Source of the DNA: Stagnimonas aquatica
GTDB taxonomy: Bacteria; Pseudomonadota; Gammaproteobacteria; Nevskiales; Nevskiaceae
Reading direction: 5' to 3'
Length of the DNA stretch: 64,000 bases
NCBI RefSeq assembly: GCF_003730135.1
Contig: NZ_RJVO01000001.1
Location: forward strand, 186,001-250,000
Part shown: piece after piece, positions 44,038 to 46,845 of the stretch
How positions within the stretch are numbered: the stretch's first letter is position 1
Layout of the letters: every line of letters begins with the position of its first letter
The notes under the pieces: generated by a model
Databases searched by the model: none
What the model was told of the DNA's origin: nothing
What the model saw: the letters and a program-made list of their open reading frames with translations, nothing else
Made by a program: the position numbers and the translations under genes

Positions 44038-44656
44038 GACTCGTTTCTTCTCGGTAGTGCTGCTGTGTCTGTACTCGGCCCTGGCCGCCGCCGCGCCGGC
44101 GACGCCGCCGGTGATCCTGGTGCTGGGCGACTCGCTGTCGGCCGGCTACGGCCTGCCGCGCGAATCCGGCTGGGTATCTCTATTGGAGCAGCGGCTGAAG
44201 ACTCAAGGCTATCCGCACCGGGTGGTGAACGCCTCGATCTCCGGCGACACCAGCGCCGGCGGCCTGAGCCGCCTGCCCGCCGCCTTGGAGGCGCAGCGGC
44301 CGAAAATAGTTCTGATCGAACTCGGCGCCAACGACGGTCTGCGCGCGCAACCGGTGAAGGCCCTGCGCGGCAATCTCGAAAAGCTGGTGGGCCTGAGCCG
44401 CGCCGCTGGCGCCACGCCGGTACTGTTCGAGATGCGCATCCCGTCCAACTACGGCCCCGCCTACACCGAGAGTTTCGCCGGCGTGTTCGCTGATACCGCG
44501 CGGGCGCTGAAGACGCCGCTGGTGCCGTTCTTCCTCGCGGCCATCGCCGCTGACCCCCAGCAGTTCCAGGACGACGGCATCCATCCCAACCTCGCGGCGC
44601 AGCCCAAGCTGCTCGACGCGGTCTGGCCGACGCTGAAGCCGCTACTGGCGCGCTAA
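44036..44656 (+). CDS. tesA: Periplasmic acyl-CoA thioesterase I / lysophospholipase (GDSL)
   Basis: A 206-residue GDSL hydrolase. The signal peptide (about residues 1-20, ending ALAAAAP) is followed by block I VLGDSLSAGYGL (catalytic Ser), block III GANDGLR and block V DDGIHPN (Asp and His). Length and motif spacing fit TesA. It is divergent from ybbA, the arrangement also known in E. coli; an in-frame ATG four codons upstream is an alternative start. Its end overlaps the convergent gene by 15 bases. Confidence 0.94.
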   Translation: MTRFFSVVLLCLYSALAAAAPATPPVILVLGDSLSAGYGLPRESGWVSLLEQRLKTQGYPHRVVNASISGDTSAGGLSRLPAALEAQRPKIVLIELGANDGLRAQPVKALRGNLEKLVGLSRAAGATPVLFEMRIPSNYGPAYTESFAGVFADTARALKTPLVPFFLAAIAADPQQFQDDGIHPNLAAQPKLLDAVWPTLKPLLAR

Positions 44657-45667
44657 GGATTCCAGCGAGCCGCGCTGGTCGCGCTGGTACTGGGCGAGGG
44701 CGCGCTGGGTGCGGACGCCGAGCAGGCCATCGACCGGACCAGGGTCGTAGCCTTCCGCGCGCAGCGACTGCTGCACCCGAGCGATCACTTCCGGGGTCAT
44801 GTTGGTCGGGCACAGCACCGAGCGCCATTCGTAGCGCTCGGGCGTCAGCAGCTCGCGTTCCCAGCGGGTCTCCAACTGCGCCGGCACCTGCACGCGCTCG
44901 ACGCTGCCCGGGTCGATCAGGCGCGCCGCCGGGCGGCTGGCCATCTGCTCCGGCACCACCACCCGGCGCAGGCCGGAGGGCGCTTTCTGCACCGGGCGGC
45001 TCACCGTGCGGTAGACCGCCGGTTCCTCGACCAGGCAGTAGATGTCGCCAGTGGCCTGGTCGATGCGCTGCACCGGTCCGCTGCCGCGCTTCCAGACCAG
45101 CCGCGCCGGCTGCTCCAGCACCTGTTCGCTGAGCAGCTCATAGCCGCCACGGCTGCCGGCCGGTTCCAGCTCGGTCTGCTCGTAGGCCTCGCGCTGCACG
45201 TAGCGCTCGCTACTCAGCGCGTAGCGGCGCGGGCGGACCTCCAGCGACTCGCTGGCCGGGCTCTGCTGCACGACCTGCAAGCGGTCCCGGTACTGCGCCG
45301 GCACCCGCACCAGGGCGAAACATTCGCCCGGGCGGGCGGGCGGCAGCATCGGCAGCTCGGCCTCGGCGGCCCCAGCGGCCTCGGGGCTGCCGACCCCGGT
45401 CAGGGTCGCTCCCGCCGTCGCGGGCGGCGGCACCGGCGGCAGGCGGGCGGAATCCAGTCTGTTCACCGGCGCTGGCGCCGGGCGGGCGAGCAGCGCCTTC
45501 TGCTGCTCGATCAGCAGATCGGCGGTGCGCTGCTGCTCGATCTGTCCCTGCGAGCGCGGCAGGAAGGCCGGCGAGCCGCTGTCCGCGCGGGCAGGCGCTT
45601 GCGCGTGGAGCGGCGCGGACAGACCGGCGACCAGCAGGACCGACAGCAGGCGCTGAAGCAGAACCAT
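44642..45667 (-). CDS. Exported protein with C-terminal peptidoglycan-binding (PG_binding_1) domain
   Basis: A 341-residue secreted protein. Residues 1-23 form a signal peptide ending LSAPLHAQ. A Gln/Pro/Ala-rich region follows, then three related segments: GECFALVRVPAQYRDRL, GDIYCLVEEPAVYRTV and VERVQVPAQLETRWERELL with a following SVLCP, each pairing a Cys with a V-P-A-x-(Y/L) motif. The C-terminus (PEVIARVQQSLRAEGYDPG, then PVDGLLGVRTQRALAQYQ) is a clear PG_binding_1 fold. Likely a periplasmic cell-wall-associated protein; catalytic activity is not evident. GGAG lies six bases before the ATG. Confidence 0.8.
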   Translation of the reverse strand: MVLLQRLLSVLLVAGLSAPLHAQAPARADSGSPAFLPRSQGQIEQQRTADLLIEQQKALLARPAPAPVNRLDSARLPPVPPPATAGATLTGVGSPEAAGAAEAELPMLPPARPGECFALVRVPAQYRDRLQVVQQSPASESLEVRPRRYALSSERYVQREAYEQTELEPAGSRGGYELLSEQVLEQPARLVWKRGSGPVQRIDQATGDIYCLVEEPAVYRTVSRPVQKAPSGLRRVVVPEQMASRPAARLIDPGSVERVQVPAQLETRWERELLTPERYEWRSVLCPTNMTPEVIARVQQSLRAEGYDPGPVDGLLGVRTQRALAQYQRDQRGSLESLARQ

Positions 45668-45781
45668 GGAGGTCTCCGGAAAGACGGGCGAGTGCAGGGC
45701 CGAGTTTAGCGGCAGGCGGACCATCACCACGCGAGAACGCCGACGCGGAGGGCGGGAGACAACAGAGATTGCCGACCCGGA

Positions 45782-46054
45782 CTAGGGCCTGTCACCCATT
45801 AGAACGCCGCTGCGGCGGAAGGCGGTTTTGGGGCAGTGCAAGGAAGCAAGAGTGCGCAATAGCGGGTCTATTGAAACTCTTGCTGACGTAGCAATGCCCC
45901 AAAACCGTCCCGCCCCGAAGGGTTGCTGGCCGAAAGCGCGTCATGCGGCGTTGCCCGCCTAGCGAAGGCAACCAGCCTTCGCGTCGGCAGGCGCCTTGCC
46001 TGACGCGCTTTCGGCCGGCAACGCAGCGACGTTCTAATGGGTGACAGGCCCTAG
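45782..46054. mobile_element. 273-bp MITE-like element with perfect 25-bp terminal inverted repeats
   Basis: Bases 45782-45806 are the exact reverse complement of 46030-46054 (25 of 25, outermost bases CTAG). Two internal stem-loops fill the element: 45823-45907, with 13-bp arms CGGTTTTGGGGCA/TGCCCCAAAACCG, and 45922-46022, with 22-bp arms differing at one base and a nested GCGAAGGC/GCCTTCGC stem. No convincing open frame or transposase is present. This fits a non-autonomous palindromic element; the CTAG ends could be a palindromic target duplication. With 45668-45781, where I see nothing, it makes up the 383-base stretch without a gene. Confidence 0.85.
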
Positions 46055-46845
46055 CGCAGCAGCATCAGCAAGCCCACCGAAGCCAGCAGCAGGGCGAAGG
46101 CGCGCTTCAGGGTGCGCGCCGGCAGGGCGTGCGCGAGTCGTGCGCCGAACGGTGCGGTCAGCACGCTGGCCAGCGCCAGTCCGAAAAACGCCGAGAGGCT
46201 GATGTAGCCCAGGTGAGCACCGACCAGCCCGGGCGCATCCCAGCCGCTCACCGCAAAGCCCAGCGCGCCGCCCCAGGCGATGGGAATGCCACCGGCGGCG
46301 GCGGTGCCCACCGCCTGCTGCATCGACACTCCACGCCAGGACAGGTAGGGCACGGTCAGCGAGCCGCCGCCGATGCCGACCAGCGCCGACAGCAGGCCGA
46401 TGCCACCGCCGGCGACCAGCAACTCGCCGGCCGGCAGACGATGACCGCCGGCGCGCGGCGGCGGCTGGGCGCCGAAGAACATCTGCGCCGCCACCAGCAG
46501 GGCGCCGGTGCCGACGGTGTTCTTGAGGGCATCGCCCGACAGCAGGTGCGCGACGAAGGCACCGCCGAGGGCGCCGAGGGCAAGGCCGGGAGCGAAGCTG
46601 CGCAGCAAGTCCCAGCGCACCGCGCCGCGCTGGTGGTGGGCGCGGGTGGAGGAGATCGAAGTGGCGCCGATCACCGCCAGCGAGGTGCCGATGGCGACCT
46701 GCATCACCACCGCCGCCGGCACTCCCAGCGCCGGCAGCACGAAGGCCAGCGCTGGCACCATGATCAGCCCGCCACCGACCCCGAACAGCCCGGCCAGGAC
46801 GCCGGCCGCCGCGCCGGTGGCGGCAAAGATCAACAGGGTGAGCAT
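46051..46845 (-). CDS. TSUP family permease (TauE/SafE, sulfite exporter type)
   Basis: A 264-residue membrane protein with about eight helices in two halves, each opening with the family motif: GLFGVGGGLIMVPAL near residue 20 and ALVGIGGGSLTVPYL near 159. TSUP proteins move sulfite, sulfoacetate or related organosulfur anions; substrate cannot be assigned. The stop codon TAG (46051-46053) is formed by the outer end of the neighbouring inverted-repeat element, so the C-terminus may have been altered by its insertion. It starts 26 bases from the divergent slt gene. Confidence 0.9.
   Translation of the reverse strand: MLTLLIFAATGAAAGVLAGLFGVGGGLIMVPALAFVLPALGVPAAVVMQVAIGTSLAVIGATSISSTRAHHQRGAVRWDLLRSFAPGLALGALGGAFVAHLLSGDALKNTVGTGALLVAAQMFFGAQPPPRAGGHRLPAGELLVAGGGIGLLSALVGIGGGSLTVPYLSWRGVSMQQAVGTAAAGGIPIAWGGALGFAVSGWDAPGLVGAHLGYISLSAFFGLALASVLTAPFGARLAHALPARTLKRAFALLLASVGLLMLLR

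Follow-up and report, generated by a model that had tools for sequence, protein, structure and literature searches.

A 267-bp palindromic element of Stagnimonas aquatica as a probable member of a modular, end-switching MITE superfamily with IS5-type ends

The window, a 64,000-nt stretch of Stagnimonas aquatica contig NZ_RJVO01000001.1 (positions 186,001 to 250,000), contains a 267-bp body at positions 45785-46051 that lies between TA dinucleotides and has no transposase gene of its own. On the sequence comparisons presented here, this body is very probably a MITE of a three-helix superfamily of Pseudomonadota that appears to be built from exchangeable modules and would be moved in trans by an IS5-family transposase. 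We read the superfamily as modular and end-switching, with a plan of end stem, hairpin 1, linker and hairpin 2 that would be fixed across its members. Sequence comparison documents the copies, the TA duplication, the empty sites, the IS5-type ends, the plan and the independent variation of the modules. The window element is organized as follows.

45783..45784, no strand: TA of the target duplication on the left, part of CTAG 45782-45785
45785..45812, plus strand: left end (terminal inverted repeat), with the IS5/IS427-type start GGGCCTGTCACC and a copy-specific inner part
45813..45914, plus strand: hairpin 1
45915..45921, plus strand: linker mini-hairpin CCGAAGG, the place of a further palindrome in enlarged copies
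45922..46022, plus strand: hairpin 2, which looks like an inverted and diverged form of hairpin 1
46023..46051, minus strand: right end (terminal inverted repeat)
46052..46053, no strand: TA of the target duplication on the right

The initial annotation had described an element with perfect 25-bp terminal inverted repeats, two inner stem-loops, a capacity to fold over most of its length and no transposase, and our measurements bear out this description. The first 25 bases of both ends are identical (25/25), and the match is 97% over 33 nt (45782-45814 and 46022-46054). The two inner stem-loops have arms at 45810-45839/45891-45920 (77% complementary) and 45922-45946/45998-46022 (92% complementary), and no ORF of at least 80 aa is found in the interior. 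The predicted RNA fold consists of an end stem that encloses the two hairpins and, in the linker, a very small one; it reaches -204 kcal/mol, compared with -112.6 +/- 5.9 kcal/mol in 200 dinucleotide shuffles, none of which is as low (z = -15.6). With up to three mismatches allowed, the end pattern GGGCCTGTCACCCATTAGAACG matches only two places in the window, both of them element ends, and is absent from 100 shuffles. The neighbouring genes, both on the minus strand, encode a peptidoglycan-binding-domain protein (44642-45670) and a TauE-family protein (46051-46845). The TauE-family gene ends in a TAG stop codon that is the complement of 46051-46053 and coincides with the border TAG of the element; in the related genome G001, which lacks the element at this site, the gene stops at the same codon. 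Just beyond the element, AGAACGCCGACGCGGAGG (45734-45751) shows 83% similarity to the left end at its inner border (45801-45818), which may be due to chance or mark a remnant.

The element is multi-copy and dispersed in its own genome. BLAST of the host genome (G000; 3.80 Mb, 15 contigs, 99.8% complete) located 14 near-full, 3 enlarged and 5 partial places, and all five genomes of the genus carry copies. The exact core pattern, a scan that is uninformative on more distant relatives, occurs in the species genomes as 28 stretches in four assemblies named Stagnimonas sp. or Nevskiaceae bacterium. The 102 core hits were reduced to 70 non-redundant ones and 66 aligned copies, which sample only part of the genus copies; L059, L062, L082 and L155, which lie at a contig edge or showed no near-perfect ends, were excluded from the alignment. 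In enlarged copies from the host (L084, L085 and L086), G001 (L089-L092) and G018 (L211), a nested palindrome of ~100 nt (…CGACACGGTGTTTGCG…CACCGTGTCGCGAGCC…) sits between hairpin 1 and the linker, and in L087, L090 and L091 the hairpin 1 stem is partly swapped for another palindromic stretch (GCGCACTCGGCTTAACGCGGCTGGCC… type).

Relatives of the host also preserve sites without the element. In G001, the element is absent at the orthologue of its window site, where the flanks align in order (86.5% over 845 nt; 72.9% over 575 nt) and the empty junction reads GTTTAGCGCAGCAGC in place of the CTAG-body-CTAGCGCAGCAGC of the host. Both flanks are likewise aligned in order around an absent element in G004, and in G002 the TauE side alone aligns, with no element beside it. 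Orthologous places without the element were found for five more host copies (L005, L008, L009, L010 and L011), the exact join being clean in only some of them, and the junctions of L003, L006 and L007 are too different in the relatives to be read. Two copies of G004, L052 and L055, have element-less counterpart sites in G003 and at the start of the window. At the L013 site in G001, two CTAG motifs lie a short distance apart and may represent a scar. Dispersed copies, empty orthologous sites and TA duplications within YTAR agree with the MITE or similar non-autonomous mobile unit that the initial annotation had suggested, and they differ from the single copy fixed in place by which it would have recognized a regulatory RNA.

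The borders of the copies define the target. TA is present on both sides in 40 of the 66 genus copies, as it is in the window element, on one side in 18 and on neither in 8; the 26 copies without TA at one border or at either count against the MITE reading. All 40 copies with two TA borders have YTAR targets (CTAG in 25, TTAA-type in 6, mixed in 9). We take TA as the duplicated unit because only 25 of these 40 copies fit a 4-bp duplication. The CTAG target duplication proposed at first is retained as a favoured target and rejected as a duplicated unit: TTAG/CTAA and TTAA targets also occur, only TA is duplicated, and the CTAG at either end comprises target and element border together. The preference for CTAG is strong because this site is scarce in the window, with 31 occurrences outside the element in 64 kb against 188 expected from base composition (TA occurs 743 times). 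By a rough ORF rule, the border TAG or TAA closes an ORF in 22 of the 45 copies with enough flank, compared with 8 of the 31 window CTAG sites. Many copies are located at gene ends; we claim only this and make no claim of a preference for TAG stop codons.

Which enzyme would move such an element? The copies share their end motif, GGG(C/T)(C/G)TGT(T/C)(A/G)nCA, with elements of the IS5 family, IS427 type, and on this basis the ends of the element family are assigned to the IS5, IS427 type. ISPssp5 (IS5/IS427, 837 bp) is described with the ends GGGTGTGTCATCAATTA and GGGCGTGTCATCAATTA and the direct repeat TA (PMC6514802). These 17-bp ends recur letter for letter in sister copies of the element, GGGTGTGTCATCAATTA in the host copies L011 and L012 and GGGCGTGTCATCAATTA in L032 of G003 and at one of the two ends of L049 in G002, and the window ends GGGCCTGTCACCCATTA are a few bases off the ISPssp5 ends. 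ISAba31 (pfam13340 and pfam13586) is reported with GGGTGTGTTGACACTT ends and a 2-bp duplication (PMC4776018), and the L071 end GGGTGTGTTGACACTAAATACC is ISAba31-like. Because the ends are shared with autonomous insertion sequences, we infer transposition in trans. In this mechanism, an IS5-family (IS427-type) DDE transposase would recognize GGG(C/T)(C/G)TGT-type ends, move the element in trans and insert it at YTAR sites, preferably CTAG, with duplication of TA.

Profile searches of the host assembly gave no IS5-type transposase (no match for PF13340, PF01609 or NF033580), so that the host has no resident driver as far as its 15 contigs show; this absence weighs against the proposed mechanism. 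Among the five genus genomes, G003 alone passes the cut-offs of these three profiles, and a PF13340 match is present in 13 of 58 genomes of the host's family. An IS630 driver, suggested by the TA target, was rejected with zero PF13358 matches in the host. Like ends bordered by TA were seen at some of the 25 loci tested, for example CTAGGCTGTGTCGTCACGAGAT (G036) and TAGAACTCATCTCATAAAT (G031), the latter resembling the MITE ends TAGAACTTGTCCGTAAAT in G004; for many of the 25 loci the terminal scan gave no ends. Furthermore, an 818-bp stretch of a Paraburkholderia replicon has the ends GGGCCTGTTCACACTA and TGGCCTGTTCACACTA and a 126-aa ORF that matches DDE_Tnp_1 and scores 107.4 with NF033580, just under the 110-bit cut-off. 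In G036, the IS5-type IS copies L132 and L148 lie directly beside ACAGGCCCTA, which is like the end of a MITE copy, and are placed as if inserted at the border CTAG of a MITE. A Thioclava plasmid (L256) carries a single CTAGGGCCTGTTAACACTAT ~100 bp before an IS481-annotated transposase gene, with no inverted partner in 3 kb, and single end matches that lack an inverted partner also occur in Photobacterium, Enterobacter and Pandoraea records.

The palindromic symmetry of the element is maintained while its sequence changes. In the 66 copies, the end stem comprises 25 pairs. Watson-Crick pairing accounts for 94.7% of its cells, each pair occurs in 3.0 types on average, and 24 of the 25 pairs have at least two types; most copies have a mismatch at the core-adjacent pair (column 35/275). 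Changes that are matched across the two sides of the stems, the very stable fold, the gene-end position and an excess of G-U over A-C in hairpin 1 could indicate a structured regulatory RNA or terminator under RNA-level selection. We regard this explanation as highly improbable, given that the copies are dispersed, carry target duplications, have empty sites and end in sequences that match IS5 ends. In addition, Rfam offers no match near a gathering score (best isrG, 14.4 against 100 bits), and the numbers of G-U and A-C come close to balance in the end stem (24:16) as well as in hairpin 2 (55:53). A fixed regulatory RNA was rejected on the Rfam result, the empty sites and these counts, which omit two columns in which a non-Watson-Crick state prevails. 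We take the upkeep of pairing as acting mainly at the DNA level, hairpin 1 apart, where some RNA-level selection may operate because G-U exceeds A-C (40:18).

How would the two arms of a DNA palindrome stay alike? In E. coli, template switching mends quasi-palindromes, and such switching could keep both arms of the element alike. Repair, template switching or a need at transposition may each preserve the symmetry, and both this upkeep and the mechanism of module exchange discussed below are inferred. The two hairpins also resemble each other in inverted orientation. Hairpin 1 compared with the reverse complement of hairpin 2 beats all 50 mononucleotide shuffles in 46 of the 66 copies, with a mean score of 54 against 33 for shuffles and 40 for the same-strand control; this score is only supportive because the hairpins resemble their own complements. 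The likeness of hairpin 1 to inverted hairpin 2 is plain by eye in L246, L247 and L235.

In the sequence comparisons, the ends and each of the two hairpins vary independently of one another. Across the 66 genus copies, inner ends show 7.4% mismatch within a copy against 57% difference between copies, and the cores differ by 23% on average. Cores are less than 5% apart in 21 copy pairs, nine of which (0.43) have inner ends more than 40% apart. The cores of L057 and L048 are 5.0% apart and their inner ends 93%, the corresponding values for L071 and L004 are 3.2% and 53%, and L032 and L049 have identical left inner ends on cores that are 21.6% apart. The hairpins behave in the same manner: L010 and L080 are 0% apart in hairpin 1 (~100 nt) and 30% in hairpin 2, and L076 and L077 are 1% apart in hairpin 2 and 25.5% in hairpin 1. 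Altogether, hairpin 1 is less than 6% apart with hairpin 2 more than 15% apart in 23 pairs, and the reverse holds in 13. The borders of exchange in the pairs shown lie near helix junctions in several cases and inside hairpin 1 in others. We propose that ends and hairpins are swapped as modules through recombination or gene conversion between copies, whereby one core would acquire different ends and may fall under different IS5-type transposases. As judged from these pairs, gene conversion over the shared core would be the simplest mechanism of exchange.

The main rival to gene conversion is fast symmetric drift. An ordinary IS5-type MITE could have rapidly drifting ends, with its arms kept alike and no module exchange between copies. 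In favour of this rival, some ends form graded series, for example TGTTGACATATGAATGG, TGTTGACATACGAATGG and TGTTGACATATAAATGA, and hairpin 1 and hairpin 2 distances still correlate over all pairs (r = 0.43). We consider it unlikely in view of unrelated ends on cores only 3-5% apart, identical inner ends on strongly diverged cores, an unchanged hairpin 1 next to a hairpin 2 of a different sequence, and two IS5 kinds of ends on one core plan. Copies that share a core and differ in their ends would also arise if the core alone were mobile and inserted mid-palindrome into pre-existing host palindromes. This scenario has hardly any probability: readable empty sites lack both the core and the end stems, TA borders the ends, which are termini of the IS5 type, and 19 of the 21 matches of the end pattern in the host lie in listed copies, the other two being single ends, one with a core-border piece. 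Core insertion into host palindromes was rejected on the empty sites without end stems and on the confinement of almost all end matches to listed copies.

The core extends far beyond the genus. A covariance model of the linker and hairpin 2 (R1), built from 28 genus copies and one from Halomonas, was searched across Pseudomonadota with few candidates scored per genome and rough E-values. R1 has matches in 69 of 85 genomes and 20 of 21 genera of the order (E <= 1e-3), in 82 of 369 genomes and 66 of 272 genera of the class (E <= 1e-5), and in 50 of 249 genomes of the phylum, 33 of these 50 lying outside the class and 26 of the 33 in one family. Among 15 loci of the order, near-perfect ends were evident at once in 11, including an enlarged element of 366 nt. 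We also examined the full length of 42 distant loci, mostly the best-scoring place per genome and not a random draw; 35 have ends that match at 17 or more of 20 bases, and 7 showed no near-perfect ends. The 35 elements include 33 of 265-276 nt and 4 from the single family outside the class, but under a strict rule only 17 are bordered by TA at either end alike; this shortfall and the 7 loci without such ends count against the reading. An element of 270 nt in Halomonas sp. PA16-9, for instance, follows the same plan and has perfect ends of 21 bp (CTAGGGCCTGTTGACGTTTCA), and IMG/VR holds whole elements on two viral contigs and an edge piece on a third.

The distant copies extend the range of ends. 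L239, L240 and L249 have ends of the GGAAACGCTGATTAAT kind, a second IS5 kind. Imperfect ends of this type also flank transposase genes annotated as IS5 in Polaromonas and Variovorax (spans of 1,168 and 1,194 bp); the ends of L235 could not be assigned to a kind. Two motifs, chosen after the sequences were seen, recur in the 35 distant elements. AAGG(C/A)(G/A) is found in 27 first halves and, read in reverse, in 26 second halves (shuffles ~4), and its partner AACGC(C/A/T)(G/T) in 20 first and 19 second halves (shuffles ~2); all four occurrences coincide in 8 of the 35. In the regions of L262, L264 and L265 (G500, G563 and G496), R1 matches twice on opposite strands with overlap, as at G500:C1:3870855-3870977 (plus) and 3870757-3870879 (minus), as if both hairpins were of one type. 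Tentatively, the core may be an old selfish module of Pseudomonadota that has outlived its transposases by helix-wise recombination with several kinds of IS5 ends, each time using the transposase then available, and the conserved motif AAGGCG/AACGCCG, which lies partly unpaired in both hairpins, may be a protein or exchange site.

A single element of this family is ordinary; what is uncommon is the combination of paired but hypervariable ends with independently varying hairpins. MITEs are usually assumed to rely on the IS from which they derive. A fold-keeping core with ends of different IS5 kinds, if true, would explain the wide persistence of a gene-less element. Moreover, many palindromes with co-changing arms make up a natural test set for the upkeep of palindrome symmetry in bacteria, and the repeat is worth annotating in gammaproteobacterial genomes. 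Among the open-licence papers listed, no description of the repeat family was found by topic or by repeat DNA words, for which ISPssp5 and ISAba31 were the only relevant matches. These two insertion sequences have the terminal motif and a 2-bp duplication in common with the element (TA, reported as AT for ISAba31). However, as described, ISPssp5 (837 bp) and ISAba31 (858 bp) are autonomous and encode a transposase, whereas the element is 267 bp long, encodes none and has an interior of unrelated hairpins. The bacterial MITEs Correia, NEMIS and RUP are alike in being short, gene-less, inverted-ended, target-duplicating and stably folding. QMITE2 of Coxiella is likewise described as short and gene-less, with inverted ends, a target duplication and a stable fold (PMC10969869). 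The family of the window element has a core that is better conserved than the inner ends, many kinds of ends and independent hairpins, features that may set it apart from QMITE2, Correia, NEMIS and RUP. REP palindromes are dispersed as the element is, but they are described as 20-40 bp in length (PMC3733652), whereas the element measures 267 bp, ends in IS5-type termini and has a TA duplication.
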